Source: Flavobacterium gilvum (GTDB lineage: Bacteria > Bacteroidota > Bacteroidia > Flavobacteriales > Flavobacteriaceae). Taken from it: DNA of 64,000 nucleotides. Shown here piece after piece: positions 13,410-32,482 of this stretch. Location of the stretch: NCBI RefSeq assembly GCF_001761465.1, contig NZ_CP017479.1, forward strand, positions 3,224,001 to 3,288,000. Reading direction: 5' to 3'. The position numbers were made by a program, and so were the translations under genes. Numbering within the stretch: position 1 is the first letter of the stretch; each line of letters begins with the position of its first letter. The notes under the pieces were generated by a model. That model was not told the DNA's origin. It ran no database searches and saw only the letters and a list, made by a program, of their open reading frames with translations.

Positions 13410-13475
13410 CAAATTTACCTAGTTGTATTCATTTTTAGGCGGAAAATCGTCCAATTTTATGTTCCAATATTCCAC
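13410..13475 (-). promoter_or_regulatory. Promoter with HTCS-type 21 bp direct-repeat operator (first lyase gene)
   Basis: On the minus strand a perfect -7 element TAAATTTG lies at 13417-13410. Exactly 32 bp upstream starts a degenerate direct repeat, read on the plus strand as GAAAATCGTCCAA (13442) and TCCAATATTCCAC (13463), period 21 bp. The half-sites are weaker than at susC, but the spacing to TTTG is identical to the other four sites. Transcripts would start near 13403, upstream of both candidate starts of the lyase-like gene. The rest of the 337 bp gap holds the inverted repeat at 13597-13677 and nothing else visible. Confidence 0.55.
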
Positions 13476-13596
13476 TTTATGCAAAATAAACTTTTCGTAG
13501 CTAATCTTTTAATTGTTTGTTCTGAAAATTGATTTCAAATAGTCATCATAAAGACTTTTGTATAAACTTTTTTCAAATGTGAATAAAAATATAAAA

Positions 13597-13677
13597 CACA
13601 TAGAACACAATTTTTTAATTAATCCTATCACAGTTTAATATGATTGCTGATTAATTAAAAAACTGTGTTGCTATGTG
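13597..13677. repeat. Long imperfect inverted repeat, possible terminator
   Basis: Left arm 13597-13624 (CACATAGAACACAATTTTTT then AATTAATC) pairs with right arm 13649-13677 around a 24 nt loop, with a few mismatches. It lies 23 bp after the stop of the GH88 gene, so it may end that transcript or be a small mobile repeat. Together with the promoter at 13410 it separates the susC-susD-GH88 unit from the lyase unit. Confidence 0.6.
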
Positions 13678-13700
13678 CTGGATTTATAATCCTCCACAGA

Positions 13701-14918
13701 TTATAAATACCATTTTTTATAACGCAATAATGCTTCCAGGAAATAATAGTCGGCATAGGTAAGCGGTACATCAATTTCCCCATTATGCGGGATCGAGCCC
13801 ACACTATGCATTAACAGATAACCTCCATTTGAACCTAATTTTGCTCTGTATTTTGGAGTTGATAATGACTTCAAAATGGTTTTGGCAACATCAACATAAT
13901 TCTGTTTCTCTTTCCCTGAAGTGTATTGACCCAATTCCAATAATGCAGATGCATAAATGGTTGCCGCCGAAACATCGCGTAAAGTACTAGGAGTTATTGG
14001 AGCATCAAAATCCCAATACGGAACCTTATCTGCAGGTAATTTAGGATTGTTCAAAATGAATTTGGCAATTCCTTGTGCTTGTTTTAAGTAATCAGGATTT
14101 TTTGTAAATCGGTACATCATGGTGTAACCATACAATGCCCATCCCTGTCCTCTACTCCATGCGCTGGAATCTGCATATCCCTGAGCCGTAACTTTTTTAA
14201 GAACTTGTCCTGTTTTCAAATCATAATCCAGTACGTGATAACTGCTGTAATCCGGTCTGAAATGATTTTTGATCGTTGTATTGGCATGATTTTCTGCAAT
14301 GTCTGCAAAAGTTGGATCATTACTATTATGACTCGCCCATTCCAGCATTTCGAGATTCATCATATTGTCAATGATAACCGGGCCTACAAAACCTTTTCCG
14401 TTTCGCAATCCATCATCGCTAACCTCCCATGACTGAATCACTTTGGCATCGGGGCGGTATCGGGTTGCTAATGATTTTGAAGACTGAAGAATCACTTTTT
14501 TGTATTCTTCGTTTTTCGTTAATCGATAAGCATTCCCAAAACTGCAATACATCATAAAACCCAAATCATGGTTTTTGGTGTAATACTTTACCGTATCCAA
14601 TATAGCAAGTCTCTTTTTGGCTTCATCAAGGATTAAAGGTTTTTTGGTATATTCATAAATATACAAAAGTGTTCCGGGATAAAAACCGCTGCACCACCAC
14701 CAAACATCGGAACTAACATTTTTGTTATGCTCGAATGTTTTTGGCATTTCATTTGCCGGTGTTGCTTTTTCTAGATATTGGTATTGCTTTTCGGCAAATG
14801 CGAAATTGTCATGAATCAGTTTTTGCATAGCAAAATGATCCTTGCTATTGTCTTTTTGGGCAGAAACAGTTAAGCTGCAAAAGGACAATAGTACCAAATA
14901 GTACTGAATTGTTTTCAT
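13701..14918 (-). CDS. GH88 unsaturated glucuronyl hydrolase
   Basis: This is a 405-residue protein with signal peptide (cleavage near LTVSAQ) and an (alpha/alpha)6 barrel. Catalytic aspartates expected from Bacillus UGL are visible: Asp118 in NHDLGFMMYCS and Asp184 in VIIDNMMNLE, 66 residues apart. Substrate-side aromatic motifs WSRGQGWALYG and HFRPDYSSYHV are also present. The enzyme hydrates the 4,5-unsaturated uronic acid that a polysaccharide lyase leaves at the non-reducing end, and so frees the rest of the oligosaccharide. It follows susD after 78 bp that include a strong hairpin, so its expression may be lower than that of SusCD. It is paralogous to 24577-25830. Confidence 0.93.
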   Translation of the reverse strand: MKTIQYYLVLLSFCSLTVSAQKDNSKDHFAMQKLIHDNFAFAEKQYQYLEKATPANEMPKTFEHNKNVSSDVWWWCSGFYPGTLLYIYEYTKKPLILDEAKKRLAILDTVKYYTKNHDLGFMMYCSFGNAYRLTKNEEYKKVILQSSKSLATRYRPDAKVIQSWEVSDDGLRNGKGFVGPVIIDNMMNLEMLEWASHNSNDPTFADIAENHANTTIKNHFRPDYSSYHVLDYDLKTGQVLKKVTAQGYADSSAWSRGQGWALYGYTMMYRFTKNPDYLKQAQGIAKFILNNPKLPADKVPYWDFDAPITPSTLRDVSAATIYASALLELGQYTSGKEKQNYVDVAKTILKSLSTPKYRAKLGSNGGYLLMHSVGSIPHNGEIDVPLTYADYYFLEALLRYKKWYL

Positions 14919-14935
14919 GAATATTAAAATGTGAT

Positions 14936-14980
14936 AAAAAAGTTGGTAAAAATACTTTGTACCATTTTACCAACTTTTTT
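14936..14980 (-). terminator. Strong hairpin between susD and GH88 (attenuator or terminator)
   Basis: Perfect 16 nt arms, AAAAAAGTTGGTAAAA at 14936-14951 and its complement at 14965-14980, with a 13 nt loop. On the minus strand it starts 16 nt after the susD stop, and its distal arm ends in a T-run, as in an intrinsic terminator. Read-through would let SusCD be made in excess over the enzymes downstream. Confidence 0.72.
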
Positions 14981-14996
14981 AGTATTAAACTAGATT

Positions 14997-16724
14997 TTAC
15001 CAACCCGGGTTTTGGTCAGCTGGAGTTATCAACTTATTAGACAACATTTCTACTGAAGGAATAGGGAACAATAAGTTCTTTTGGGTAGTACTTTGCCCTC
15101 CGACTCTACCGTATCGGGTATCAGAAACTATCACAGGTGGCGCAGGTGCAGGTGGGTTAGCTGCAGGACTTGCTGCTATTTCATTCCCTACAGCATTCAT
15201 AACAGTAACATAACCTAAACCTTTCCAACGAATCAAATCCAATCTTCTTAATCCTTCAAAACACAATTCACGCATACGCTCGTCTTCAATAGCTTGTTGC
15301 TGAAAAGCAGCTTTACTTAAACCTGATGGCAAATCAGCAACCAAACTTGGTGTACCAATTGGCAAGCCATATCCTCTTCTTCGTACTTGGTTCACATATT
15401 CAAGAGCAGTTGCAGTTGGACCATTATTCACCTGATTTTGTGCTTCAGCATACATCAAGAGTACATCAGCATATCTCAATACAGGGAAATTAATACCGCT
15501 TTGGTTTTTATCTTTAGGATTAATGGCTTCGTATTCTCTTTTCCATTTCGCAGCATCTCTACCATATTGAACATTCTTGCCAATGGCAGTTTTGGTTGCG
15601 ACATTAGTAGTATTGTTGATAGCCCATGTGTAAGTGGCCAAATTCCAATCACGACGCAAATCTCTACCAGCAGCATCATAGCTATTGAATAATCTATGTG
15701 TTGCTTTTACGAATCCATAACAATATCCAATAGTATTCATAAGAGGCGAACCATTTGCAGGCGTAAAAGTAATTCCAATCTGACTTCCTAAGCCTCCAAG
15801 TTCAAAGTACCCATCAGCACGATTCCCTTTAAATTCAACTTCCCACATACACTCTTTTGTGTCATATTTATCTAGTGCTGGATTAATAAATATTTGACGG
15901 TAAGCATTATTAGAATTTGCAGGAACAGTTGGAATAGTCTGATTAAAACTGTTAAAAGCAGGATTAGTATCGAAAGTTACATTCAAAGCATGCTCACCAG
16001 AATCGATTACTTTTTTAGACCAAACTAAAGATTCAGCATATTTTGAAGTATCATTTAGAGGATAACCCGCCATGTACAAACATACTCTTGCCAAAATCCC
16101 ATCAACTACCGTTTTTGAAACACGGCCCGGAAATCCAATAGCCGATGAAGTAGCCACTTTGCCTTCGGCCTCCTTCATGTCATTCAATATTTGCTCGTAA
16201 ACCTGAGCTTTTGGAGTTCTAGCCATGCTAATTCCAACAGGACTTGTCGTTGGAGTCAATCTCAAAGGCACATCACCAAAATGAGTTACCAAAAGGAAAT
16301 AATAATAACCTCTTAAGAACTTAGCTTCTCCCAATATTTGTTGGCGTTTTGTTTCATCAATTGTTGCCACATTAATATTGGCAATCAAATCATTGGCTCT
16401 TTCAATTCCTTTGTAAAGGTCGGTCCAATAATTGGCAATATTTGGATCCGTGAAATTATAAAGATTTACAACTAAACCTGTTGCAGTATTACGACCGTAA
16501 AAACTCTCATCTGATTGTACTTCATAGGTAGTGTTTATTAAGTTACCATAAACATTACTTGAACCCAGTATATCATAAACCCCTGCTAAAACCTGAGTCA
16601 AACCGGCTTCATCTGTATAATACTGCTCCAATCCAACTTTATCAATCGGCTTTTCATCCAAAAAACTCTCACATGAACTTGTGCTCATAGCAATCAAGCC
16701 CAATATTATATATATCTTTTTCAT
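14997..16724 (-). CDS. SusD/RagB-family glycan-binding outer-membrane lipoprotein
   Basis: This is a 575-residue lipoprotein with a lipobox ending at Cys18 (STSSC), followed by the usual FLDEKP start. N-terminal TPR-like helices (LTQVLAGVYDIL, RANDLIANIN, LGEAKFLRGYYYFLL) and the C-terminal signature near residue 480 (FQQQAIEDERMRELCFEGLRR, in part) define the family. SusD proteins cap the SusC channel and capture oligosaccharides on the cell surface. It starts 21 bp after the susC stop, and the two would be co-translated. A Pro/Ala-rich insert (AANPPAPAPP) near the C-terminus is unusual. Confidence 0.96.
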   Translation of the reverse strand: MKKIYIILGLIAMSTSSCESFLDEKPIDKVGLEQYYTDEAGLTQVLAGVYDILGSSNVYGNLINTTYEVQSDESFYGRNTATGLVVNLYNFTDPNIANYWTDLYKGIERANDLIANINVATIDETKRQQILGEAKFLRGYYYFLLVTHFGDVPLRLTPTTSPVGISMARTPKAQVYEQILNDMKEAEGKVATSSAIGFPGRVSKTVVDGILARVCLYMAGYPLNDTSKYAESLVWSKKVIDSGEHALNVTFDTNPAFNSFNQTIPTVPANSNNAYRQIFINPALDKYDTKECMWEVEFKGNRADGYFELGGLGSQIGITFTPANGSPLMNTIGYCYGFVKATHRLFNSYDAAGRDLRRDWNLATYTWAINNTTNVATKTAIGKNVQYGRDAAKWKREYEAINPKDKNQSGINFPVLRYADVLLMYAEAQNQVNNGPTATALEYVNQVRRRGYGLPIGTPSLVADLPSGLSKAAFQQQAIEDERMRELCFEGLRRLDLIRWKGLGYVTVMNAVGNEIAASPAANPPAPAPPVIVSDTRYGRVGGQSTTQKNLLFPIPSVEMLSNKLITPADQNPGW

Positions 16725-16745
16725 TATGAATGTAATTTAAGGTTA

Positions 16746-19700
16746 TTAAAATGTAATATTCGTTCCAAAAGCAATTGTACGTGCACGAGGATAAGGCGAA
16801 TAATCAAATCCCGGTGTTAGAGCTGTTCTGTTAGTATTAACCTCTGGATCAGGCCCAGTATATTTTGTCCAGGTATATAAATTTTGTCCCGAAACAAAGA
16901 ATCTCATTGATTTTAGGTGCCATTTGGTAACCAATTTTTGATCTACATTGTATCCTAAAGCAAGCGTTTTGAATCTTAAATAAGAACCATCCTCCACAGT
17001 GTAACTTGAATATCCACCAGCAGATCCAATATAACCTCTAACACGTGGAATATCTGAATTTGGATTTTCAGGACTCCAACGGTCTGCGAAATTGGCGAAA
17101 AGGTTTTTATTTATTCCAGCTCCTGCAGCATCAAAGATTACACGGTTACCATTTAGAATGTCATTACCATAAGACCATTGGAAGAAAACGTTCAAATCAA
17201 AGTTTTTGTAAGTGAAATTGTTACTGAAACCTCCAGTATGTTTTGGCTGACCATTTCCAATTACGGTATAATCTAATTTGTCTATAGTTAAATCCCCGTT
17301 TTGATCTTGATATTTAACATCCCCAGGTCTGATACTTGCCCTTGTATTTCCATTACCAGCGATACCAGTTTTTAACACGTAAGGATCAGCTGTAGTACCA
17401 CTACCTGTAAAATCTTCATTTTTGTAAGTCCCTAAAGACTGTAAACCATACATTAGTCCTATAGGCTCTCCTACTCTTGCAATATAACCAGAGGTATTTA
17501 CATCAAAGTTATTAATAGTACTTTCCATATAATCCTGTCCCTCATTTAAAGCCAATAATTTATTTTTATTGAACGCAATATTGGCGCTGGTACTCCATGT
17601 AAAATCCTTGGTAACAATGTTTCTAGTGTTCAATGTCAATTCCAATCCTTTATTTTCTATACTACCAACGTTTTTAAATGCTGTAGTAAATCCAGAAGAA
17701 TTTGGAATTTGTGTTTTCAATAACAAATCGTTCGTCGTTTTTTTATAAACATCTGCAGCAAAAGAAATTCTTTGGTCAAAGAAACCTAAATCAAGTCCAA
17801 TATCCATTGCCTCTGTAGTTTCCCATTTCAACTCAGAATTTCCAAGTGTATTAGGAATAACTCCATCCATATATACACCATTGAAAGCATAGGAATTTGA
17901 TATTGGATTGAAGTAAGTAGTAAGATAATCATAAGGTCCTACACGGTTGTTACCGGTTTGTCCGTAACTCGCACGCAATTTACCATCAGATAAAACTTTA
18001 TTGTTTTTCAAGAAATTTTCTTCTTTGAATTTCCAGGCAATCGCTCCCGATGGGAAATATCCCCAATGATTTTCAGTAGGAAATTTAGAAGATCCATCCG
18101 CTCTCATCGAAGCTGTAATCATGTACTTTGAACCATAGTTATAATTAACCCTAGCCAGAAATGAAGCCATTGTCCACTCAGTATTGGTAGGAATTACTCT
18201 TTGAGGTACCCCTAGTCCAATTCCCATACCGTCAAACATCAAACTCTCATCTTTCAATTGATACTCAGAATAACCATTGAACCAGTCTTTTCTTTGTTGG
18301 GCAGTAAACCCTCCTAAAGCAACAATTTTTGATTTACCATAGGTTTTATCCCAAGTAATAGTGTTTTCATTCAACCAGTTACTGTAATTGGTATTACCAA
18401 TGATTCCCTGAACCCCATTAACACTTCCTTTACGTCCTCTAGACGTTTGGGAATTATAGAATTCATCTCTTTCAGATCTATTTTCATTGATTCCAAAAGT
18501 AGATCTCAATTTCAGATTTTTAGCCAATAAATACTCTACATAACCATTAAATCCAAAGTTTTTTACTTCGGTTACGTCGTAAGTATTTTCAAGAGCAGCA
18601 ATCGGATTAACTCTGTAATCAGAAGCGTTGGTTATACTAGGATCAACAAATTCTTCTTCAATATTATAAGTTTCAGAAGGCACTGGTCGTGTTCCCCAAA
18701 CAGATGCAAAAACATTGGAAGTTGTCGCTCCGGCAAAATCTCCTTTTGTTGGATCTAATCCGGTTTGTTTCAAGAAGCTATAATTGGTATTAATACCTAC
18801 TTTTAACTTATCAGTAATACTATAATCAAGATTTAAGCGCCCTTGATATCTTTTATAATTGGAATTCAACACAACACCATCCTGATCTACCATAGAAAGA
18901 GAAACAGCATATTTAAACTTATCTGTTCCACCTCTCACTGCAAAATCATTGTTTTTATACATTGCAGTACGAGTAATTAAATCCTGCCAATCAACTGGCT
19001 TAACTGTCTTGTAATAGTCTAATGTTCTTCCTGGTCCAGTAAGATAAAGCTCAGTCGGTGTTTTTGGCGATCCAACTGGAGCAGCAAGTGTAGGATCAAC
19101 TTCTATTTGATATTTCACATAGTTGTAAGGATCCATCACCTCTACTCTGGATATTGAATTTTGAACTCCTGTAGTAGAGTTAAAAGTAAATACTGGTTTA
19201 CCCTTTTTACCTCTTTTAGTCTGGATTACGATAACCCCATTGGCTCCACGAGCTCCGTAAATGGCCGTAGCCGAAGCATCTTTCAAGATATCGATAGACT
19301 CAATATCCGCAGGGTTGATTACGTTATTGTTAGGGTCTTCAATCAAGAAACCATCAATAACATATAATGGACTGTTAGCTTGTGTAAGCGAGTTATTACC
19401 ACGAATTACGATATCAACACCAGATCCTGGTCTACCGTCTGACGAAGTTACCTGAACCCCGGCAACACGACCAGCCAAAGCATCGTCAAAAGAACGAATC
19501 GGAGCTTTGTTGATATCTGCCATTGATACACTTCCAACAGAACCTGTCAAATCTTTTCTTTTAACTGTTCCGTATCCAATTACAACAATCTCTTCCAAGT
19601 TACTTGTTGTAGAATGTAACCCTACATCAATGCTACTTCTGTCTCCTACTGTAATTGTAGCTGTTTCATAACTAATATAAGAAAAAACCAACTGATCTTT

Positions 19701-19940
19701 TGAAGTGGCTTTAATTTTATATTGACCTGTAAAATCAGTCATTGTTGCTTCCTTCGTTCCTTTTACCGATACTGTAACACCCGGTAATGGCTCTTTCTTT
19801 TCATCATGTACAGTACCAGAAATCATTTTGCCCTGTGCCTGCGCAAAAGTTGGTACAATTGTCATAAAAATACCAACAAGGAAAAGTCTGAAGACCTTAG
19901 TAAAAAGTTGGTATTTCGAGTTCAAATTTTTCATAATCAT
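16746..19940 (-). CDS. SusC/RagA-family TonB-linked outer-membrane transporter
   Basis: This is a 1,064-residue protein. A signal peptide ends near TFAQAQ, a CarboxypepD_reg-like domain spans about 38-110 (SGTVHDEKKEPLPGVTVSVKG, in part), and the TonB-box-like EEIVVIGYG lies at 116-124. The plug domain (GRVAGVQV, ASATAIYGARGANGVIVIQTK, in part) leads into a 22-strand barrel that ends with Phe (GTNITF). It imports oligosaccharides of several residues with energy from TonB. Start could be Met1 or Met3 (MIMKN). It is the first gene of the PUL arm; its 200 nt leader and promoter are at 20120-20212. Confidence 0.97.
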   Translation of the reverse strand: MIMKNLNSKYQLFTKVFRLFLVGIFMTIVPTFAQAQGKMISGTVHDEKKEPLPGVTVSVKGTKEATMTDFTGQYKIKATSKDQLVFSYISYETATITVGDRSSIDVGLHSTTSNLEEIVVIGYGTVKRKDLTGSVGSVSMADINKAPIRSFDDALAGRVAGVQVTSSDGRPGSGVDIVIRGNNSLTQANSPLYVIDGFLIEDPNNNVINPADIESIDILKDASATAIYGARGANGVIVIQTKRGKKGKPVFTFNSTTGVQNSISRVEVMDPYNYVKYQIEVDPTLAAPVGSPKTPTELYLTGPGRTLDYYKTVKPVDWQDLITRTAMYKNNDFAVRGGTDKFKYAVSLSMVDQDGVVLNSNYKRYQGRLNLDYSITDKLKVGINTNYSFLKQTGLDPTKGDFAGATTSNVFASVWGTRPVPSETYNIEEEFVDPSITNASDYRVNPIAALENTYDVTEVKNFGFNGYVEYLLAKNLKLRSTFGINENRSERDEFYNSQTSRGRKGSVNGVQGIIGNTNYSNWLNENTITWDKTYGKSKIVALGGFTAQQRKDWFNGYSEYQLKDESLMFDGMGIGLGVPQRVIPTNTEWTMASFLARVNYNYGSKYMITASMRADGSSKFPTENHWGYFPSGAIAWKFKEENFLKNNKVLSDGKLRASYGQTGNNRVGPYDYLTTYFNPISNSYAFNGVYMDGVIPNTLGNSELKWETTEAMDIGLDLGFFDQRISFAADVYKKTTNDLLLKTQIPNSSGFTTAFKNVGSIENKGLELTLNTRNIVTKDFTWSTSANIAFNKNKLLALNEGQDYMESTINNFDVNTSGYIARVGEPIGLMYGLQSLGTYKNEDFTGSGTTADPYVLKTGIAGNGNTRASIRPGDVKYQDQNGDLTIDKLDYTVIGNGQPKHTGGFSNNFTYKNFDLNVFFQWSYGNDILNGNRVIFDAAGAGINKNLFANFADRWSPENPNSDIPRVRGYIGSAGGYSSYTVEDGSYLRFKTLALGYNVDQKLVTKWHLKSMRFFVSGQNLYTWTKYTGPDPEVNTNRTALTPGFDYSPYPRARTIAFGTNITF

Positions 19941-20119: not shown

Positions 20120-20131
20120 GAAAACGTTTTC
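20120..20131. promoter_or_regulatory. Perfect LacI-type palindrome in the susC leader
   Basis: GAAAACGTTTTC is a perfect 12 bp palindrome of the kind bound by LacI/CcpA-type repressors (central CG, flanking A/T runs). It lies just downstream of the predicted susC start site (TTTG ends at 20147), where a bound repressor would block elongation. No LacI-family gene is in the window, so the regulator is unknown and chance is possible in AT-rich DNA. Confidence 0.4.
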
Positions 20132-20146
20132 TTCAAAAGATAATTT

Positions 20147-20212
20147 CAAATGTACTTTGGAGTATCTGGTTAAAAGGTTAAATTCTTCCTTTTGAAGGGG
20201 AAAATATTCCTT
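20147..20212 (-). promoter_or_regulatory. susC promoter with HTCS-type 21 bp direct-repeat operator
   Basis: The minus-strand -7 element TACATTTG lies at 20154-20147. Its G is 32 bp from the operator edge at 20179. Read on the plus strand the half-sites are TAAATTCTTCCTT (20179) and GAAAATATTCCTT (20200), period 21 bp, i.e. two helical turns, as expected for a dimeric AraC-type activator bound to one face. The architecture matches the sites at 13410, 25968, 26950 and 32417. The HTCS at 27251-31333 carries an AraC output domain and is the natural candidate regulator. Confidence 0.72.
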
Positions 20213-20273
20213 TTTCTCTTATTCTACAATGTATCGAGCTTTTTTTTAATCTAGCCGTAACCATTTAGTAAGA

Positions 20274-20486: not shown

Positions 20487-20493
20487 ATATGTG

Positions 20494-22804: not shown

Positions 22805-24580
22805 TTATTTAGTTACTTTATTCAGCCTCATTTTCAATTGGGCATCATATAAAGACAGTGGATAAACTTTTCCTTTATTAAAATTTTCAGTATAAATCCA
22901 CTCGTCATTAGTATCTGCTTGGTTTCCATTAATGGTTACCTCAAATTGAGGTTGGTAAACTCCTGCCAAAATACTTTTGGGATACATTTGATGGCTTAAA
23001 TTATCTTTAACCAAACCTTTTACTGGAGACTGCCAGCTATAAAACATCTCCGAATCTTTATCATTAAAATCGGCTAGCTCTACATTCCACCAAGTATTAA
23101 AATTTGCAGTATGAGGCAAATTATTTGGCGCCCCGCCTCCACTGATTTTATTTAGTCCTTTGATATTTTCAAATAAATTTTCTGCGGGTGGCGAAAATCT
23201 TCTGTCACTGAAGCCATGAAAATCAAACAAACCTGGTTTTCCGCTGACAGCCTTATAATCAACATTCCTAAAAACATTGCCATAAGCATTTCCCTCTCCG
23301 CTTAATACATGTGTAAAATTGTTTTTGAAATTCAGGTTTTGAATTAAATTGTCGCAGGCATGGCTGTAAATTTTAACTCCACTATGACCATCAAAACCTA
23401 AAAATTCCGCTCCATCAACAGTAACATTCCTGCTGTCTAACAAATAAATCGGACTAGTAAAATTTTCCAAAGTCACATTCTTAATCCAACCATTTGCCAC
23501 TCTGCAAAAATTTATGGCATTCCAGCCGTAATCCATCTCTTGGCCTTGGTATTTTCCTCCTCCTTCACAACCGTGATGGCAATAATAACCAGCCCAACCC
23601 GATTTTAAGTAAATATTTTCGATACCAATTTCGCTAAGCATTTCAGCCTTTGCCACGACAGGTTTATATTTTAGATCAAAATCTCTTCTCAGAGGCTGTT
23701 TTAATGTAATTTTATTTTTATTTATGCTCTCAATTTGAACCAGCCATTGGTAAGAAGGCGCGCTACTTGGACCTGCACTTTTTGCAGATGCTTCAAAATC
23801 ATAAAATGCTGTAATAGGACTGATGATACTTTTAATCAATGTTCCTGTTTCGTCGCTATTGTATAAGCCCAACAAAACATAATCATTAGCAGATAAATGT
23901 TCTGAACTTTTTAACCACAACGTTCTATCTCCTTTTTTGGCGTTTTTAATGAATTGAGTCAAAATCTTTGCTTCTTGAATTTCTCCATTTACTACCCCAG
24001 CATTGGTCGAAATAACTTCTGAATTGTTCGTTGCATTTTTAGGATAATCTATACCCCAAAAACTTTCTGTACGCTGCAATTTGGTGGCAGTTTGAATTAA
24101 AGCCGGAGATAACCAAGGGCTTACATCATCTTGTGTTAATGGATAACCATCAAAAAAAACAGTTCCATTGCTACTGTTTTCCTCACCTCGCAACACTACG
24201 TTACTATGATTTATTTGCAAAAATTGCTTTTCTCTTGGGTTCATATTAAAATAATAAACCCCTTTTGGAAAATACAAAACACCTCCACCATCAGCGCCAA
24301 CTTTATCTATAAGTTGTTGCACTTCTTTGGTTTGGTCTTTCATGGTATTTGTTTTAATACCAAACTTGGTTACGTCTATTACGTTTTTAGTAATATTAGG
24401 AACTGGTTGTTCCCCATACCGATATCCTGCATACGAAAAATCAGGTAAATCACATTTCTTACTGTCTTTTTTAAAGGCTGTATAAATGGCAGCTTCTTGT
24501 TGCGAAAAGCATTGAAAGCTTATCACAACAAGAAACATACAAACCAACATCTTATTTATATTTTCTTTTTTCACTTTCAT
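22805..24580 (-). CDS. DUF4955-type beta-helix protein, probable polysaccharide lyase (second copy)
   Basis: This is a 591-residue protein with an N-terminal signal peptide (MLVCMFLVVISFQCFSQ). Motifs are LPDFSYAGYRYGEQPVPN, IDVTKFG, GGGVLYFPKGVYYF, and a His/Gly-rich turn GYYCHHGCEGGGKYQGQ (in part) that has no counterpart in the other copy. The C-terminal VYPLSLYDAQLKMRLNKV corresponds to the paralogue's ending. Its start overlaps the stop of the GH88 gene by four bases (ATGA), so the two are translationally coupled. That coupling is the best evidence for a shared lyase/unsaturated-uronyl-hydrolase step. Residues for lyase chemistry could not be assigned. Confidence 0.78.
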   Translation of the reverse strand: MKVKKENINKMLVCMFLVVISFQCFSQQEAAIYTAFKKDSKKCDLPDFSYAGYRYGEQPVPNITKNVIDVTKFGIKTNTMKDQTKEVQQLIDKVGADGGGVLYFPKGVYYFNMNPREKQFLQINHSNVVLRGEENSSNGTVFFDGYPLTQDDVSPWLSPALIQTATKLQRTESFWGIDYPKNATNNSEVISTNAGVVNGEIQEAKILTQFIKNAKKGDRTLWLKSSEHLSANDYVLLGLYNSDETGTLIKSIISPITAFYDFEASAKSAGPSSAPSYQWLVQIESINKNKITLKQPLRRDFDLKYKPVVAKAEMLSEIGIENIYLKSGWAGYYCHHGCEGGGKYQGQEMDYGWNAINFCRVANGWIKNVTLENFTSPIYLLDSRNVTVDGAEFLGFDGHSGVKIYSHACDNLIQNLNFKNNFTHVLSGEGNAYGNVFRNVDYKAVSGKPGLFDFHGFSDRRFSPPAENLFENIKGLNKISGGGAPNNLPHTANFNTWWNVELADFNDKDSEMFYSWQSPVKGLVKDNLSHQMYPKSILAGVYQPQFEVTINGNQADTNDEWIYTENFNKGKVYPLSLYDAQLKMRLNKVTK

Positions 24581-25830
24581 AAGGAAATTTCATTTTCTAT
24601 TTTTTTATATCGCAACAATGCTTCCAAATAATAATAATCGGCATAGTTCAATGGTACGTCAATCTCGTTATTATGAGGCAAACTGCCTACTGAGTGCTTT
24701 ATTAGAAAATTATTATTTGTTTTTGGAATCGCCAAATAAGCACTACTGCTCAATGACTCAATTATTTCAATCGCATCTGCTTTATATTTTTTTCCTGTTT
24801 CTTTTGGCAAATAAGTACTTATTTCTAAAAGTGCCGATGCAACAACTGCTGCTGCCGAAGCATCTCGCGGAATAGGATTACTGTATTTTTCTTTATTGTA
24901 ATTCCACAGCGGTGTGTAACCTTCCTGATTAACATTAAAATCCCACAACGGAATTTTGTCATTTGGCAGTCTTTTGTTATTCAAAAAGAAATCAGCCAAT
25001 TTGGTAGCCGTATCCAGATATTTTTTGTCTTTTGTTTCTCTGTACATTATGGTAAAACCATAAATTGCCCAAGCCTGTCCTCTTGCCCAAGTAGAATTAT
25101 TAGAAAACCCCTGACAAGTTTCTCTATTTAAAACTGCTCCAGTTTTTTCATCATAATTCACAACGTGATAAGTGCTATAATCAGGTCTTATGTGATTTTT
25201 CATAGTAGCATTCGCATGCGATACCGCTATATTATAATAAGTAGGATCACCTGTTTCTTTGGAAGCCCAGAAAAGCAATTCCAGATTCATCATATTATCA
25301 ATAATTACAGGGTATTTCCAAAGCGTCTTTCCATCCCAGGACATGCGTTGATCCCATGATTCTATACATTTTGTAACAGGACTATATCTGCTTGCCAATG
25401 ATTTTGCAGATTGTATCAAGATATCACGGTAAGCTTTATTACCTGTCAAACGGTATCCATTACCATAACTGCAATACATCATAAAACCCAAATCATGAGT
25501 ACCTTTATTAAATTGGTTATCCTTTAAAGATTCTGTCCATTTAGTCGCAACATCTTTCCATTTTGGATCTTTGGTATATTCATAAACATACCATAAATCA
25601 CCTGCCCAAAAACCACAAGTCCAATCTTTCAAATCGGTGCTTTTTAAGCTTCCGTCATTGGCCGATGTGCGTGGATAAAGGTCATAATTTGATTGATCAT
25701 TAATCATATCAGTGTACATGATTTCGGCACGTTTGAAACTTTCTTTGATTAATAAATCGGCCGAATTATCTGTACTAGTAAAAGCCAGAAGTAAAAAAGC
25801 ACAGGGTATGATCTTTCTTAAAACACTCAT
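24577..25830 (-). CDS. GH88 unsaturated glucuronyl hydrolase (second copy)
   Basis: This is a 417-residue protein with a signal-like hydrophobic N-terminus (IIPCAFLLLAFTST). Catalytic aspartates are Asp113 in THDLGFMMYCS and Asp178 in VIIDNMMNLE, 65 apart as in the family. WARGQAWAIYG and HIRPDYSTYHV mirror the first copy at 13701-14918, but overall identity is moderate, so they probably differ in the uronic acid linkage or sulfation they accept. Differences include an insert with QRMSWDGKTLWKYP and NVNQEGYTPLWNY. It is first in an operon with the second lyase and probably the sulfatase, driven from 25968-26033. Confidence 0.93.
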   Translation of the reverse strand: MSVLRKIIPCAFLLLAFTSTDNSADLLIKESFKRAEIMYTDMINDQSNYDLYPRTSANDGSLKSTDLKDWTCGFWAGDLWYVYEYTKDPKWKDVATKWTESLKDNQFNKGTHDLGFMMYCSYGNGYRLTGNKAYRDILIQSAKSLASRYSPVTKCIESWDQRMSWDGKTLWKYPVIIDNMMNLELLFWASKETGDPTYYNIAVSHANATMKNHIRPDYSTYHVVNYDEKTGAVLNRETCQGFSNNSTWARGQAWAIYGFTIMYRETKDKKYLDTATKLADFFLNNKRLPNDKIPLWDFNVNQEGYTPLWNYNKEKYSNPIPRDASAAAVVASALLEISTYLPKETGKKYKADAIEIIESLSSSAYLAIPKTNNNFLIKHSVGSLPHNNEIDVPLNYADYYYLEALLRYKKIENEISL

Positions 25831-25967
25831 ATTTTTTTATTATTTATATTGTAAATCTTTTACTGATAGAACTATTTTATTTTTACCACAGGAAAATCTT
25901 TTTTTTACGTGGGTAAAAACTGTATTTAAAAAACAGCCAACACTCAAAACCCTGCTGTTACTGTTTT

Positions 25968-26033
25968 CAAAATTGCGGTTATTATTATTTTAAACAGATT
26001 AAATTTTTCCTTAATAAGTGTAAATTTTTCCTT
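25968..26033 (-). promoter_or_regulatory. Promoter with perfect HTCS-type direct repeat (GH88-lyase operon)
   Basis: This is the clearest copy of the operator. The 13-mer TAAATTTTTCCTT occurs identically at 26000 and 26021 on the plus strand, period 21 bp. The -7 element CAATTTTG (TTTG core, minus strand) ends at 25968, exactly 32 bp from the operator edge. GCAATTTTG is shared word for word with the CBM96-like promoter at 26950. The remaining 25831-26277 gap is AT-rich and otherwise holds only the terminator at 26190. Confidence 0.75.
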
Positions 26034-26189
26034 TTATTTATTTTTTTGATTTTCCATACATCATTCAAAGTATTAAACAAGAAAAACTTAGCTTCTACAT
26101 CTGTTTTATTTTTGCAAAAAAAATATCACTACACTATTTTATATTCCATTAAAAAAAAACAATATTGTAAGGTTACCGTTGAAAAAAAA

Positions 26190-26228
26190 CAAAAAAAAGC
26201 CTGCAAAATACTTTTTCATTTTACAGGC
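26190..26228 (-). terminator. Intrinsic terminator of the CBM96-like gene
   Basis: The arms GCCTGCAAAAT (26199) and ATTTTACAGGC (26218-26228) pair with one mismatch. On the minus strand the hairpin is followed directly by a run of eight T. It lies 50 bp after the stop at 26278 and insulates the CBM96-like gene from the GH88 operon promoter. Confidence 0.75.
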
Positions 26229-26277
26229 GATTTCAGATTTAATTGACTAAACTAAAACTAAAAATTAATTGACTTAT

Positions 26278-26862
26278 CTATTCTATAATTAAAAAGCAAT
26301 CTTTTCCAATAGAAGCACCGGTTGAAACCGAAATATTATTGGCCAAAGCAAGTGAAATAGTTCTCTTTTTCGAATCTTTTATCAATTCATTTATACCATC
26401 GACATCTAATTTTATTTTTACCCATTCAAATGTTTTATCATCTATTGATTGATTGAGTTGAGCAGAACCTAAAACATTACCCAATTTTGGAGCATTATTA
26501 AATGTAATACTTTGAGAACTCCATTTACTATTGGGAACACCTTGTATATCCAAATCAAATTTTGAATCCGGAAACACTTTATCTTTAAAAACTTTTATTC
26601 TAATATCAAACTCAACTGATTTTGCACTCTCAAAACCTTGAGGAAGTTTAAATTTCATAAAAGTAATTCTTGAGTATTTGGTATTTCCTTTAGAATTAAA
26701 AACCAATAACGCATCTGGTTTTGTTACTCCTAATGCTTCAAGGGATGTTTCGCCTCCTTGTATAAAAGCGCATTCAGTTGCTATAATTTTTTCACTTTGA
26801 GCATTCGCAGACATAACTGTCAAAAAACATAAAACAAAAAATCTCAATACTTTTTTTTTCAT
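26278..26862 (-). CDS. Secreted single-domain DNRLRE/CBM96-like protein
   Basis: This is a 194-residue protein. A signal peptide ends at SANAQ. The rest is one beta-sandwich whose features fit the DNRLRE/CBM96 fold: AFIQGG near the start, LLVFNSKGNTKYSRITFMKF (in part) as the central strand pair, SITFNNAP, and a C-terminal SLALANN. Known CBM96 modules bind acidic glycans such as alginate. A free-standing copy in the PUL, with its own HTCS-type promoter and terminator, may be a glycan-binding protein. Family assignment rests on motif memory, so other beta-sandwich folds remain possible. Confidence 0.65.
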   Translation of the reverse strand: MKKKVLRFFVLCFLTVMSANAQSEKIIATECAFIQGGETSLEALGVTKPDALLVFNSKGNTKYSRITFMKFKLPQGFESAKSVEFDIRIKVFKDKVFPDSKFDLDIQGVPNSKWSSQSITFNNAPKLGNVLGSAQLNQSIDDKTFEWVKIKLDVDGINELIKDSKKRTISLALANNISVSTGASIGKDCFLIIE

Positions 26863-26949
26863 AACATTTTTTTTAATTTTTTTAGGGCTATACTTTTAGA
26901 TTAATAGGTTAATTTTCCTTAGCTGTATTCCATGCTAAGTTATTACTCC

Positions 26950-27015
26950 AAAATTGCTATTTATAACAAAATAAAAGGGGTAAATTTATCCTTAATAAGA
27001 GTAAAAACTTCCTTT
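26950..27015 (-). promoter_or_regulatory. Promoter with HTCS-type direct repeat (CBM96-like gene)
   Basis: The plus-strand half-sites TAAATTTATCCTT (26982) and TAAAAACTTCCTT (27003) have a 21 bp period. The -7 element GCAATTTTG (minus strand) ends at 26950, 32 bp from the operator edge, as at the other four sites. It is about 235 bp upstream of the divergent HTCS gene, so it might also affect that gene. The remaining 26863-27250 sequence holds only the HTCS promoter. Confidence 0.72.
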
Positions 27016-27206
27016 TTAGTAGCGTTCTTAACATTACATATTTGGAGAGTAACAAGATAAAATAACTAAATTTATCTTATTTTAAAGGATTATTATTTTC
27101 AGACTAATAAAATTTCTATTAATTTTGACCCATATCTACAATCGTGATTGATGATATATTTTTCCCCACCTTTACATTTTATTAATATAAAATTAACTAT
27201 TTTTAA

Positions 27207-27231
27207 CAGTTTCAAAAACTGCTTAATTTTG
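27207..27231 (+). promoter_or_regulatory. Candidate HTCS gene promoter with small palindrome
   Basis: TAATTTTG at 27224-27231 fits the Bacteroidota -7 consensus TAnnTTTG and lies 20 bp before the ATG. The 15 bp palindrome CAGTTTCAAAAACTG (27207-27221) sits directly upstream, in the spacer. No clear -33 TTTG was found, so confidence is limited. Confidence 0.4.
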
Positions 27232-27250
27232 TAAAACTTAAACCTATTTA

Positions 27251-30200
27251 ATGATTTTTAAAAATCACAATTTGAGAATTCTTTTTTGGGGAATTTGCTT
27301 CTGGAGCTTACTTTTTTCTCCTTCAAAAAGCTTTTCCCAAAATAGTTCATTATCATTCAACCATTTAAATGTTACTAATGGTCTTTCAAACAACTCTGTT
27401 TTATCAATCAGCCAAGACTCTACCGGTTTCATGTGGTTTGGGACAAAGTATGGCTTAAATCGTTTTGACGGCCGTACATTTAAAGTTTTTAAAAATGATC
27501 CTGAAAACAAAAACAGTATTTCTTCCAACGATTTTATAAAAAAACTCGCATTTGCTTCAAATAAAAAAATGTGGATTGTCACTGACGGATTGGATTTATA
27601 CCATTCTGAAGACAATTCTTTTGTCACTGTTCTACCGCAAACTGAAAGTCTTTTGAAAGTTTTGCAGGATTCTAATGGTAATTTATGGATTGGTTCTTTG
27701 ACACAACTAAAATTTAAAGCTGCCAAAAGCAATAAAATTATCCCCATTAAAATAGCAAAAGAAAATCTGCAGGTTTCAGAAATTTTTGAAGACAACAACC
27801 ATCATATCTGGGTAGGAACATCGGCGGGATTATATGAATTGTTTTTTGCAAATAAAAAACTAATTACAAGAAGACATTTCAGTTCCGAATTCAAAAACAG
27901 TGAGAATGTTGATTTAATCACAAGCATTATACAAGATCAAAATTTAAGATATTGGATAGGAACAAAAAAAAGCGGTCTTTATCTTTTTGATAAAAAAACA
28001 TTGCAACTAACTCATTTTGTAAAAAACAACAATGATAAAAACTCATTGGTAAACAATAATATCCGAAAAATTTTAGTTCATAAAAATGGTTCGCTTTGGA
28101 TTGGAACACAAGACGGATTATCGATTTTGAACCCCTACACTCACCAGTTTATTAATTATCAACACGATCCTACAAATCCAAACAGTTTAAGTCAAAACTC
28201 TATTTATGACATTTTTCAGGACAAAAGTGGATCTGTTTGGATAGGAACTTATTTTGGAGGAGTCAATATTGTATATTCTGTAAATACGCCTTTTACCTTT
28301 TATCAAAACAACATCAATAAAAATAGTATTAGTAGCAATATTATCAGCGCAATAGTTGAAGACAACAAACACAATTTATGGATTGGTACCGAAGCCGGAG
28401 GTCTTAATTATTTTAATAAAATCAATCAACAGTTCATTAATTACAAAAATAATATTAATGATAAAAACAGCTTGAGTTCCAATCTGGTTAAAGCCATTGC
28501 TATTGATAAAAATCAAAATATTTGGATAGGAACAGGTTTGGGAGGTGTAAATCTTTTTAACCCCAAGACTTCAAGTTTTACAGTTTTCAAACGAAATGCC
28601 AGTAACAGCAATTGCATTGCTTCGGATAACGTTAATTGCCTCGTTGTTAGCAAAGAAAATAAATTATTTGTAGGAACAGATAACGGTCTTAGTATTTATG
28701 ACATTGCTCACCAAAAATTCAGCCATATTGCCACCGGCGGGAAAACATATATAGAAAAGTGGATAAATACGCTCTTTGAAGATAAAAAAGGTCGTATTTG
28801 GGTGGGTACACCTCTCGGAATTTACGTTTACCAAGATTCAAAACTGCAGCATAAAAGTTTTAAAGATAAATCGAACAAGCCATTCAAATACAATATCAAC
28901 TGTTTTATTGAAGACAGCCATGGAAATATGTGGGTAGGAACCTATCATAACGGACTGGCATTATTGAACTTAAAAAATAATACTTACAAAATTTTTAATA
29001 CCGATTTTGGTTTACCAAGTGATAATATATTGTCTATCACAGAAGATAATGATACCAATTTATGGATGGGAACCGATAATGGTTTGGTAAAATACAACCG
29101 CCAATTAAATATATTTAGAAGTTTTAATATTCAGGATGGTCTTCCTGATAATCAATTTAATACCAATTCTGTTTTTCATGATAGTCAGGGGCGAATGTTT
29201 TTCGGCACTTACAACGGATTGGTAAGCTTTATTCCCCACAATATTCAAAGAAATACGATACCGCCTGATGTTGTACTCTCGAACCTCAAATTGTTTAATA
29301 AAGGTGTAAAAGTCAACGATGAAAACGAACTTCTGAATAAAGACATAAATTACAGCAACTCTTTGACTTTTGATCATGATCAAAACAATTTTACAATCGA
29401 GTTTTCGTCATTAAATTTTATAAAATCAAATAAAAACAAGTATGCATACAAACTTGATAGTTTTGAAAAAGAATGGAACTATGTAGATATACCATCGGCT
29501 ACTTATACTAATTTGCCTGCTGGAAACTATGATTTTTTAGTAAAATCAGCCAATAATGATGGTATTTGGAACAAAAATGTCAAAAAAATAAACATAGTTG
29601 TACTTCCTCCAATATGGAAAACCTGGTGGGCCTATCTTATTTATTTTATCATAATTTCTTCAATAGCCTATTATGTCTTAAAATTTTTAAAAGCAAGAGC
29701 CGACCTGAAACGAGAGCTTTATTTTGAAAATTTAAGAGCAGAGCATCAAAAGCAGGACTATCAGATGAAGCTGGATTTCTTTACCAATGTTTCGCATGAA
29801 ATCCGAACACCATTGACTCTTATTTTGGGACCTATAGAAAAATTAGAGCAATTAACTGCCGAAAACACACAAGCCAATAAATATGCTCTTAGCATTAAAA
29901 ACAACACAGAACGACTGTATCGTCTAGTAAACGAATTATTGGATTTCAGAAAAGCAGATTCCGGTAACCTGCGCCTGTACTTTTTTGAAGAAGACATTGT
30001 AAGCGCCGCAAAAGAAATTTTCAACCATTTTCAAACGCTTGCCGAGGCAAAAAACATTCAGTATACCTTCAAAAGTAGTCATGACTCCATTTTGGTTTAT
30101 TTTGATAGAGACCAAATGGAAAAAGTGTTTTTTAATTTATTAGCAAACGCTTTCAAGTTCACACAAAATGAAGGCAGTATAAGCCTAGAAATTTCCTTAA

Positions 30201-31333
30201 ACGACCAACAGGTTGAAATTATGGTAACTGATAATGGTAAAGGTATCGATATTGATAATATCGACGATATTTTCAAAAGTTTTTATCAGGCAGGGCAAAA
30301 TATAGGAACGGGTATTGGCTTGACATTATCAAAAAGTCTGGTAGAACTCCATAAAGGAAAAATAACGGTGGCTAGTAAACCGTCTACAGAAACCGAAACA
30401 GGCAAAACTACTTTTACGGTAGTGTTACAGCTAGGCAAAAATCATTTAAGCGAGATTGATATTGCCCCTACTCCAATCATTGAAAACCATGATTATAAAG
30501 AAATTAACGAGTACACACCCGAAGACATTATTGATGATGCCGTAATAGAGGATAAAACCAAAACTGCTAATATTCTAATTGTGGAAGACAATGATGAAGT
30601 AAGAGAGTTCATCAGACAATCTTTGGAAAATCAATACCATGTTTATGAAAGTGAAAACGGATTGGAAGGTTGGAAAAATGCGATTCAGACACTTCCTGAT
30701 TTAATCATTAGCGATGTCATGATGCCTATTATGGATGGATTGGAACTTTGCAAAAAACTTAAAACTGATGTACGTACTTCGCATATTCCTGTAATTATGT
30801 TAACGGCAAAATCTGCTTCCATACACCAAATTCATGGTTTGCAACACGGCGCCGATGCTTATATTACCAAACCTTTCAGCGATCAGATTTTACAGCTTAA
30901 CATCCGTAATCTTCTATCTTTAAAAGGTTCTTTGCAAAAGAAATATAGTGAACAGCTATTACAATTACCGATTATAACAACCGAAGAATCATCTCAGGAA
31001 GAGGTATTCCTCCAAAAACTACAGCAAATTATCGAAGAAAATATTGCCAATACCAATCTGGATCTCGGCTTTATCACTGCTGAAATTGGCATGAGTAAAT
31101 CTGTTTTGTACAAAAAATTTAGTGCTCTTACCAACTTGTCCTTAAATGAATTTATTAAAACGCAACGTTTAAAACACGCCGTTACATTTTTTCAAAAAGG
31201 GGAAACCAACATCCTATCAGTTGCTTTACAGGTTGGGTTTAATGATGCCAAGTACTTTAGCCGTGAATTCAAGAAAATGTACGGCATTACCCCAAACGAT
31301 TATATTAAAAACAAAGGACAGGCAGATGTTTAG
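27251..31333 (+). CDS. Hybrid two-component system regulator (HTCS) of the PUL
   Basis: This is a 1,360-residue inner-membrane one-protein two-component system. Signal peptide; periplasmic two-bladed sensor of repeated WIGT/WVGT propeller motifs over about residues 40-680; a Y_Y_Y domain about 680-785 (FEKEWNYVDIPSATYTNLPAG, in part); membrane helix about 793-815. In the cytoplasm come a HisKA domain with His849 (NVSHEIRTP), a HATPase with DNGKGID and GTGIGLTLSK, a receiver with Asp1155 (ISDVMMP), and an AraC-type DNA-binding domain from about 1255 with GFNDAKYFSREFKKMYG. Such proteins sense an oligosaccharide in the periplasm and switch on their PUL. The operator repeats found around it are the likely targets. 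Confidence 0.97.
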   Translation: MIFKNHNLRILFWGICFWSLLFSPSKSFSQNSSLSFNHLNVTNGLSNNSVLSISQDSTGFMWFGTKYGLNRFDGRTFKVFKNDPENKNSISSNDFIKKLAFASNKKMWIVTDGLDLYHSEDNSFVTVLPQTESLLKVLQDSNGNLWIGSLTQLKFKAAKSNKIIPIKIAKENLQVSEIFEDNNHHIWVGTSAGLYELFFANKKLITRRHFSSEFKNSENVDLITSIIQDQNLRYWIGTKKSGLYLFDKKTLQLTHFVKNNNDKNSLVNNNIRKILVHKNGSLWIGTQDGLSILNPYTHQFINYQHDPTNPNSLSQNSIYDIFQDKSGSVWIGTYFGGVNIVYSVNTPFTFYQNNINKNSISSNIISAIVEDNKHNLWIGTEAGGLNYFNKINQQFINYKNNINDKNSLSSNLVKAIAIDKNQNIWIGTGLGGVNLFNPKTSSFTVFKRNASNSNCIASDNVNCLVVSKENKLFVGTDNGLSIYDIAHQKFSHIATGGKTYIEKWINTLFEDKKGRIWVGTPLGIYVYQDSKLQHKSFKDKSNKPFKYNINCFIEDSHGNMWVGTYHNGLALLNLKNNTYKIFNTDFGLPSDNILSITEDNDTNLWMGTDNGLVKYNRQLNIFRSFNIQDGLPDNQFNTNSVFHDSQGRMFFGTYNGLVSFIPHNIQRNTIPPDVVLSNLKLFNKGVKVNDENELLNKDINYSNSLTFDHDQNNFTIEFSSLNFIKSNKNKYAYKLDSFEKEWNYVDIPSATYTNLPAGNYDFLVKSANNDGIWNKNVKKINIVVLPPIWKTWWAYLIYFIIISSIAYYVLKFLKARADLKRELYFENLRAEHQKQDYQMKLDFFTNVSHEIRTPLTLILGPIEKLEQLTAENTQANKYALSIKNNTERLYRLVNELLDFRKADSGNLRLYFFEEDIVSAAKEIFNHFQTLAEAKNIQYTFKSSHDSILVYFDRDQMEKVFFNLLANAFKFTQNEGSISLEISLNDQQVEIMVTDNGKGIDIDNIDDIFKSFYQAGQNIGTGIGLTLSKSLVELHKGKITVASKPSTETETGKTTFTVVLQLGKNHLSEIDIAPTPIIENHDYKEINEYTPEDIIDDAVIEDKTKTANILIVEDNDEVREFIRQSLENQYHVYESENGLEGWKNAIQTLPDLIISDVMMPIMDGLELCKKLKTDVRTSHIPVIMLTAKSASIHQIHGLQHGADAYITKPFSDQILQLNIRNLLSLKGSLQKKYSEQLLQLPIITTEESSQEEVFLQKLQQIIEENIANTNLDLGFITAEIGMSKSVLYKKFSALTNLSLNEFIKTQRLKHAVTFFQKGETNILSVALQVGFNDAKYFSREFKKMYGITPNDYIKNKGQADV

Positions 31334-31449
31334 GTTTTCAAAAGTGTAGATTTAGATCTAGAAAAACATTGAAATGAGTATCATTCACCTATTTTTTCAG
31401 ATCTCTTGACTCGAATCGTGTAAATATTTTCAAAAAAAAATTGGTCAGT

Positions 31450-32380
31450 GCCCAAGTATGGTAATGGAATTATAGCCCCACGCTAATCGCCATAATTAAC
31501 AGGGCACCGCCAATTTTTATAATAAATCCTTAAAGTCTCTAAATACTATTGACCAAATTACAGGCCAAAACAACGCATTAACAAATCCCAAAACCGCTAC
31601 CAATACAATGACAACCGGTAATTCCGGAATTCCTGGTAATAATGTAATCATTGTGCAAGGTGAAATGAATAAAATAGTAACAGCCAAAAGAACTCCGAGG
31701 GTACAAGATAATTTTAAAAAAGAAGTTAGAGAAACATATTTTGGAATTAACGCTATTCCCAAAACACAGCCTATAACTATAGAAGTCATTGTAAACAAGA
31801 TTAATTTTTGATAAAAATCAAGCTGTACTACATAAACCTCTAATCTTTTTAGAAAATCGCCAAGAGAATTCCCAGCCAAAATTTCGGAAGCAGTATAGAA
31901 ATATAATATCAAAACAATCAAAGCCAAAACAAACTGAGGCTGCATCAACATATTTTTAATCTTCTGAAAAAAACTTAGATTAATCTTACTTTGATCTTCT
32001 ACAAAATTCATTTCGGGGAGCAATAAAAATTTCAGAACAATTGCCAGTACGAAAATAATTATAGATACAGAAATAAAAGATACTTGTTGTTCCAAAAAAA
32101 ATGAATCTTGAGTATTCGTTTCTCCCACAGCGTTTTGAACGTCCTTTTTATCAACCCCATAATCTGCATTATGTGACAAAACCAAGGCTTTTAATTCATG
32201 TGCTCTCTCAATATCATTTTGATGAATAATATCAGAACTATTCTGAGCAACTGCATCATAAGAAAAAACACAAAACAATATTGAACAAATACCTAAAATA
32301 TAAAACGCATTGCATTTACACAGGCTATAATTAAGTCTTGGATTCAAGTAAAAGAATAAGATTGAAGAAAAATATTTCAT
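31450..32380 (-). pseudogene. Decayed FucP/GluP-type MFS sugar transporter
   Basis: An open frame of 287 codons (31517-32380) matches only the second half of sugar/proton MFS permeases. Recognisable segments are a KFLLLPEM linker, LILYFYTASEILAGNSLGDFL for the family LYVGAEVSIGSFL, and FVNALFWPVIWSI for FNSIMFPTIF. The first six membrane helices are missing, replaced by an odd signal-like start. After the stop, other frames continue the same family: GGALLIMAIS, then GAIIPLPYLG down to 31450. Hence it is frameshifted at least twice at the 3' end and truncated at the 5' end. It keeps an intact HTCS-type promoter at 32417-32482. Confidence 0.7.
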
Positions 32381-32416
32381 ACAACTACTTAATGGGGGTT
32401 AAGAGATTTGGTAGAC

Positions 32417-32482
32417 CAAAATTATTTCATCTTACTGATAATAAAGGGTATGATTTTCCGTAAATGGATAAAAATCTTCCTT
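32417..32482 (-). promoter_or_regulatory. HTCS-type promoter/operator upstream of the MFS relic
   Basis: A perfect -7 element TAATTTTG (minus strand, ending 32417) lies 32 bp from the operator edge at 32449. Plus-strand half-sites are TATGATTTTCCGT (32449) and AAAAATCTTCCTT (32470), period 21 bp. It would start transcription about 30 nt before the relic's ATG at 32380, which implies the transporter once belonged to the PUL regulon. I see nothing else in 32381-32762 apart from AT-rich sequence before the ApbE gene. Confidence 0.6.

Follow-up and report, generated by a model that had tools for sequence, protein, structure and literature searches.

This locus raises the question of which regulator reads a direct repeat that recurs in front of its genes. 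The window analyzed here is a stretch of 64,000 nucleotides (nt) from Flavobacterium gilvum (NZ_CP017479.1, positions 3,224,001-3,288,000, forward strand) with a polysaccharide utilization locus (PUL), in which five minus-strand promoters carry two similar half-sites upstream of a -7 box. A hybrid two-component system (HTCS) protein is encoded in the same locus at 27251-31333. We consider it very probable that the five sites are the operator of this HTCS, placed as for a class II AraC-type activator. The sequence and geometry of the sites, their conservation, their genomic specificity and their co-occurrence with one HTCS subfamily are direct observations. The sites are real, and their conservation indicates that they are most likely functional.

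In all five sites the half-sites are 21 bp apart, and the outer edge of the pair is 62 bp 5' of the first T in TTTG. Read on the minus strand, the half-site is AAGGAAnATTTTnnYC in the consensus of 24 collected sites. The two half-sites contain 15.9 and 15.1 bits of information, whereas the 20 bp preceding the -7 box contain 0.26 bits per base; the bits at the -7 box itself are present by construction, since every collected site was required to have TTTG at the set distance. On the minus strand of the window, half-site pairs matching at 17/20 or better occur three times at lag 21 and at most twice at any other lag from 13 to 44. Three of the five -7 boxes are exact TAnnTTTG elements (TAAATTTG, TACATTTG and TAATTTTG); the other two deviate from it by one base (CAATTTTG). 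A preliminary description of this DNA had reported five minus-strand promoters with one layout, and all five are present, although the fourth spans 26949-27014 and not 26950-27015. It had also found a -7 element of TAnnTTTG or one base off in four of the five; such boxes exist, but the count is five. The invariable 32 bp that it gave for the distance to TTTG holds at all five window sites and becomes 32 or 33 bp in relatives. The sequences at 26000 and 26021, which it called identical, both start with TAAATTTTTCCTT. Four of the window operators are strong, and the one at 13410-13475 is weak, with divergent half-sites (GTGGAA.../TTGGAC...).

In Bacteroides, HTCSs constitute a major regulator class for glycan use. 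The protein at 27251-31333 joins sensor, kinase, receiver and AraC-type helix-turn-helix in a single chain, the combination that defines a hybrid two-component system. Pfam finds the HTH_18/AraC domain with which it had been said to end, and its translation contains SHEIRTP (H box), SDVMMP (the receiver Asp stretch) and SHIP. The last of these is the S/CHIP part of a motif that PMC11253607 links to inhibition between the receiver and the DNA-binding domain (DBD).

In the mechanism that we propose, the periplasmic propeller of the HTCS would detect oligosaccharides of the target glycan, sensing would lead the kinase to phosphorylate the receiver, and the phosphorylated receiver would free the AraC-type domain. 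A dimer of this domain could then occupy the two 17-bp direct-repeat half-sites, two helix turns apart on one face of the DNA. With TTTG at -7 to -4, the proximal half-site would extend from about -48 to -32, the place that a -33 element would occupy, so that the bound dimer may recruit RNA polymerase where the promoter itself provides only a -7 box. Class II AraC-type sites have a proximal half-site that abuts the -33/-35 region at a fixed place, which is the placement found here. The araI1-I2 site of Escherichia coli araBAD is likewise a class II site with 17-bp direct-repeat half-sites, a 21-bp period and a proximal half-site that abuts the -35 region. The window operators differ from it in that a hybrid kinase, and not a cytoplasmic sugar binder, is the presumed activator, and in that the promoter is of the Bacteroidota -7 type. 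PMC7366714 notes that no -33 motif was detected in Flavobacterium johnsoniae, an observation in keeping with a -7 promoter that depends on an activator. Binding, phosphorylation, the direction of control, promoter activity and regulon membership are features that we infer from sequence.

A search of the 4.40-Mb genome with the full pattern, allowing up to three mismatches, gives eight matches, and the reversed control gives none. Four matches are the strong window sites. The other four precede the SusC/SusD pair (3306444), the SusC of the 761 kb PUL, a BD-FAE-type esterase (2777449) and a PL8-type lyase (3554028-3559751). The genes behind all eight are thus three SusC genes, the GH88-lyase operon, the CBM96 gene, an MFS-like fragment, the esterase and the PL8-type lyase; seven are of polysaccharide type if the esterase is counted by its BD-FAE match, and the eighth is the MFS-like fragment. 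This is the genome scan that the preliminary description had proposed, run with a consensus pattern, and it bears out the claim that nothing like the operator precedes housekeeping genes, which follow none of the eight. The reading given there, of the repeats as likely sites for this HTCS, is in essence supported. If TTTG is dropped from the pattern, the own genome yields 15 matches and the control 8; specificity at this threshold therefore depends on the -7 register. The 32-bp spacing was built into the own-genome searches, which consequently provide no independent test of the fixed distance.

Elsewhere in the genus, 149 genomes together give 156 matches to the pattern and 143 to its control, which amounts to roughly one per genome and is about the chance level. 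This background is what one would expect if the sites arose by chance in an A+T-rich genome, but the eight-to-zero result in the own genome and the lag-21, matrix and co-occurrence tests on relatives described below make such an origin exceedingly unlikely for the set. For site 13410, chance is a possible explanation.

The candidate regulon appears to extend past the local PUL to the second SusC/D pair, the PL8-type lyase, the esterase and probably the susC promoter of a paralogous PUL at 765 kb. The SusC/SusD pair (genome 3306350-3311072) is about 51 kb from the HTCS and has an operator with one mismatch. In the interval between the HTCS at 765 kb and its SusC are two tandem operators on the same strand (genome 761173 and 761554), and a palindrome that is described below follows each of them. 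In F. fluvii a PL8-type gene with an operator adjoins the HTCS, and here one that likewise has an operator is about 300 kb away.

The lag-21 arrangement recurs in a close set of seven loci whose HTCSs are 72-83% identical to that of the window, six of them from five Flavobacterium genomes and one from Pedobacter segetis. Half-site pairs matching at 16/18 or better occur 11 times at lag 21, whereas the other 48 lags average 0.19 such pairs and never exceed 1. With a looser threshold of 15/18, lag 21 has 15 pairs (mean of other lags 2.79, maximum 7), and at 14/18 it has 31 (mean 16.6, maximum 29) and the excess fades. TTTG follows at +62 in 8 of the 11 pairs, a number that rises to 9 if one additional base is allowed; three relatives' operators have the extra base before TTTG (susC in loci L075 and L241, and position 4562 of L082). 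Homologues of SusC, sulfatase, GH88, lyase-like or PL8-type genes are preceded by 9 of the 11 pairs. No half-site pair of at least 16/18 is present in two of the seven loci (L074 and L076).

Alignments of the relatives' susC promoters match at the half-sites and TTTG and have diverged flanks, and the same is true of the GH88 promoters of F. daemonense and P. segetis. A recent duplication of a promoter cassette, without selection on the operator, could also have made the sites alike. The susC leaders of the window and the 765 kb PUL do resemble each other over a long stretch, and a promoter duplication that is described below occurs elsewhere in this genome. Retention of the half-sites and TTTG between diverged flanks in the Flavobacterium and Pedobacter GH88 promoters, together with 15-16 bits in each half-site against the low information of the adjacent 20 bp, makes this origin very improbable.

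When a matrix built from 12 relatives' sites is applied to 763,618 positions of the own-genome regions examined, 12 own sites take the first 12 ranks, which shows consistency beyond the consensus letters and not full independence. Conversely, a matrix of own sites gives best scores of 22-55 in all eight loci with a close HTCS (the seven plus L241 of genome G101) and of no more than 18.8 in 133 other HTCS loci, which comprise 4 from Pedobacter (44% identical HTCS), 69 farther loci and 60 from whole genomes. By this comparison, the operator follows the HTCS subfamily of 27251-31333. The receiver-DBD is found at E <= 1e-100 in 2 of 150 genomes of the genus, the own genome with four copies and G101 with one, and in both an operator lies within 4 kb of a close HTCS. 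The close HTCS of G101 (L241 7964-12007) aligns over its full length, yet it is split in two open reading frames.

Several observations weigh against assigning the sites to this HTCS as a functional operator. Site 13410 is not matched in the genome scan with the full pattern at up to three mismatches; it does have rank 11 with the relatives' matrix, is 7th of 127,870 window positions in a leave-one-out test of the operator alone and closely resembles the site at genome 761554. Such an operator is found neither before the HTCS gene (best score 0.9) nor before the sulfatase gene at 21054-22586. Sulfatase genes in three relatives' loci do have a preceding operator. Among the lag-21 pairs of relatives, one (L075 1258) is inside a coding frame, and another (L077 15191) precedes an unidentified gene. 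The two sets behind the matrix ranking are not fully independent, since selection of the 12 own sites by consensus preceded their scoring, and the window consensus also served to gather the 12 sites of relatives. Close and distant scores are separated by a narrow gap at the edge (22.4 versus 18.8), and the 69 farther loci include 7 that are shorter than 8 kb. Three other close HTCS copies in the own genome, 81-84% identical over the receiver-DBD, make the pairing of copy and site ambiguous. Finally, the loci were collected through HTCS similarity, so that any PUL-linked factor would travel along and a different regulator is formally possible as the binder; the genome has further genes with AraC-type domains as well as 10 LacI-type genes. 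We regard such a binder as improbable, because a scan of 20 window proteins in and near the PUL recognized no other DNA-binding regulator, and because an AraC-type domain and 21-bp direct repeats agree with the HTCS. Outside this set of genes, a stretch 5' of the GH95 gene (7157-7551) likewise lacks an operator (best score -14.6).

The HTCS copies may also share the operator, which would make the system a cross-talking network and not a private regulon. This arrangement is compatible with assignment of the sites to the HTCS at 27251-31333, and we give it somewhat less than an even chance. The similarity of the receiver-DBDs favors it, the recognition helices are nearly alike, and an operator of this type is found at 761173, in the 765 kb PUL, within a promoter whose last 33 bases match the window susC promoter at 30/33. 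It is opposed by the 4384 kb paralogue, which adjoins a distinct half-site class (AAAGACG), so that at least one copy has seemingly diverged, and by the 2640 kb copy, which is truncated to residues 866-1357. In three own paralogue regions, lag-21 half-site pairs are no more frequent than those at other lags at any threshold; the sites there are divergent and are detected solely through the pattern with TTTG or the matrix. The truncated fourth copy (genome 2640016-2641425) lacks a sensor, its TAG is its own stop, and a diverged operator is present at 2639781.

The half-site next to the 4384 kb copy reads AAAGACGnTT...C. Direct repeats of this second class, also with a 21-bp period, occur at genome 2626632 (plus strand) and at 3469291, 3817239, 4375847 and 4380621 (minus strand), four of them exact and one with a single mismatch. 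A reversed control gives nine matches at up to two mismatches, so the site count alone is no evidence. Support for the class comes from the 21-bp arrangement of the sequences and from the place of two sites, 4375847 and 4380621, which adjoin the 4384 kb HTCS and its SusC. A promoter stretch of 281 bp with this class is duplicated at 95% identity (L243 1355-1635 and L246 1357-1633, at 3469 kb and 3817 kb of the genome). The recognition helix starts MSRAVLYKKF in the 4384 kb copy and MSKSVLYKKF in the window copy, and its S/A position corresponds to a MarA residue that touches DNA.

Some importer promoters have an additional element, the palindrome GAAAACGTTTTC, which has a single window copy at up to one mismatch. 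It occurs 15-18 bp 3' of TTTG in 10 of 28 operator promoters, eight times perfectly and twice with one mismatch, and all 10 precede susC or a PL8-type gene (761554 being assigned to the susC behind it). Besides the window copy, it is present in perfect form at genome 761080 and 761460 and in loci L072, L075, L076 (at the PL8-type gene), L082 and L241. The other four window operators lack it, and no palindrome is found within 60 bp at up to one mismatch of the susC operators at 3306 kb and 4384 kb or in L073 and L074. At this stringency the palindrome lies within 60 bp of 13 of the 780 TAnnTTTG sites in the own and close regions; 10 are the operator promoters (L076 9676 is weak), and the remaining 3 are opposite-strand sites that face these same palindromes. 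Only the position of the palindrome is enriched, since its raw count in the genome (8 places) does not exceed that of the reversed control (11). The window copy is probably the operator of a second regulator, and we take the palindrome to resemble a LacI/GalR-type operator. None of the 10 LacI-type genes in the genome could be singled out as its regulator.

The spacing between half-sites and -7 box may be shared by HTCSs in general. A test that is independent of half-site sequence measured self-similarity at lags 12-40 and at each offset from an exact TAnnTTTG (1,682 cells) in 5' regions near distant HTCSs. In a discovery set of SusC regions (52 in the first run; 42 with 17 exact anchors after de-duplication), the cells at lag 21 and offsets -64 and -63 rank first and second by mean score, a result equaled by 0 of 1000 random anchor sets. 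The validation regions (60 from 15 genomes) were chosen by hand, mostly around full-length HTCS frames outside the own genome, and shorter frames and some other matches were omitted. Their 28 SusC regions, with just 14 anchors, again place lag 21 first and second by mean score (offsets -62 and -63; random anchors 22/1000). Pooling both SusC sets (70 regions, 31 anchors) ranks the 21/-63 register first of 1,682 cells (z 5.3; random anchors 0/1000). For validation genes not recognized as SusC (255 upstream regions, 87 anchors), the cell (21,-63) is also first of 1,682 (z 5.3), with 0/2000 for random anchors on the 261 undeduplicated regions. The far set of non-SusC genes (305 regions, 95 anchors) has (21,-68) first and (21,-63) second (z 3.1; random anchors 44/2000).

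Other outcomes run contrary to a class-wide register. By count of strong pairs, cells at lag 26 lead the SusC validation with two, tied with (21,-64), and if one TAnn mismatch is allowed, (21,-63) drops to rank 46 of 1,682. An earlier SusC validation run (25 regions, 12 anchors) did not place the 21/-63 register first. Decoy anchors TAnnTTTA and TAnnTTTC score 6.46 and 6.31 in the far set, versus 6.30 observed. A 21-bp, -63 register common to HTCS promoters across the class is likely from these comparisons but not settled. A broader proposal is that HTCS promoters class-wide have half-sites of any sequence with a 21-bp period, held in a fixed register of about -63 to the TTTG in TAnnTTTG, and that many importer and PL8 promoters of this subfamily are two-input gates, combining HTCS activation with a second, probably LacI-type, repressor, while the other enzyme promoters seen here have one input; we hold it to be slightly better than an even bet.

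The features of the window are collected in Table 1. The lyase-like gene that overlaps the end of the GH88 gene presumably belongs to the same operon. Elsewhere in the window, a single frame at 50754-55055 fuses an AcrB-type RND pump to an outer membrane efflux protein domain.

Table 1. Candidate operators, genes and palindrome in the F. gilvum window. Mismatches are relative to the full pattern, and ranks are among 763,618 positions scored with the relatives' matrix.
Feature	Positions	Strand	Mismatches	Rank	Remarks
susC operator and -7 box	20147..20212	-	0	1	half-sites 20212-20196 and 20191-20175; TTTG 20150-20147
GH88-lyase operon operator and -7 box	25968..26033	-	0	4	half-sites 26033-26017 and 26012-25996
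CBM96-like gene operator and -7 box	26949..27014	-	1	2	
MFS-like fragment operator and -7 box	32417..32482	-	3	6	36 bp 5' of start codon
Weak, divergent operator and TAAATTTG	13410..13475	-		11	5' of DUF4955 lyase-like gene 11693-13363
Palindrome GAAAACGTTTTC	20120..20131				15 bp 3' of susC TTTG
HTCS, candidate binder	27251..31333	+			Pfam: Reg_prop propeller, Y_Y_Y, HisKA, HATPase_c, receiver, HTH_18/AraC
SusC-like TonB-dependent receptor	16746..19940	-			Pfam Plug, CarbopepD_reg_2
SusD-like protein	14997..16724	-			Pfam SusD_RagB
GH88-family protein	24577..25830	-			Pfam; first gene after operator 25968
Pectate-lyase-like/DUF4955 protein	22805..24580	-			Pfam; overlaps end of GH88 gene
CBM96-like protein	26278..26862	-			Pfam
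Pectate-lyase-like/DUF4955 protein	11693..13363	-			Pfam; after weak operator
MFS-like fragment	31517..32380	-			after operator 32417; sub-cut-off Pfam MFS_1, profile positions 152-323 alone

Direct repeats with an average period of 21 bp were predicted in 2013 by Ravcheev et al. as HTCS operators in Bacteroides thetaiotaomicron, to be bound by a dimer on one face of the DNA, and motifs were predicted for 16 of its 36 HTCSs (PMC3878776). Regulator fragments of two B. thetaiotaomicron HTCSs bind susC promoters with predicted sites in electrophoretic mobility shift assays (PMC11253607). The window operators resemble those described in PMC3878776 in having a direct repeat of about 21 bp that is located 5' of susC/D and enzyme operons, in including a distant gene (BT4675 in that study) and in being conserved with related HTCSs. 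The likeness described here is that of arrangement. They differ in being flavobacterial and in the added palindrome at several importer promoters. SusR-type operators, also treated there, are direct repeats before sus genes as well, but their centers are 67 or 77 bp apart and not 21. The parts of PMC3878776 at hand contain no fixed distance from operator to -7 box that we noticed, and those of PMC12125979, PMC11501099, PMC10766802 and PMC10994844 contain nothing on one; none was recognized in the open-license literature by title and opening of the abstract. The 21-bp direct repeats of HTCSs had already been predicted (PMC3878776), and what is added here is the fixed register, the distant candidate members and the palindrome.

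A fixed -7 register would allow operators to be found directly and sensors to be linked to distant genes. If it is common to the class, the operators of many HTCSs would be readable from sequence without comparison of orthologues. In F. gilvum, the register ties the PL8-type lyase, the esterase and the second SusC/D pair, all beyond the window, to this PUL as putative members. The close paralogues, with at least two half-site classes, lend themselves to a natural test of changes in the DNA specificity of HTCSs, and the palindrome hints at a second layer of control on import.

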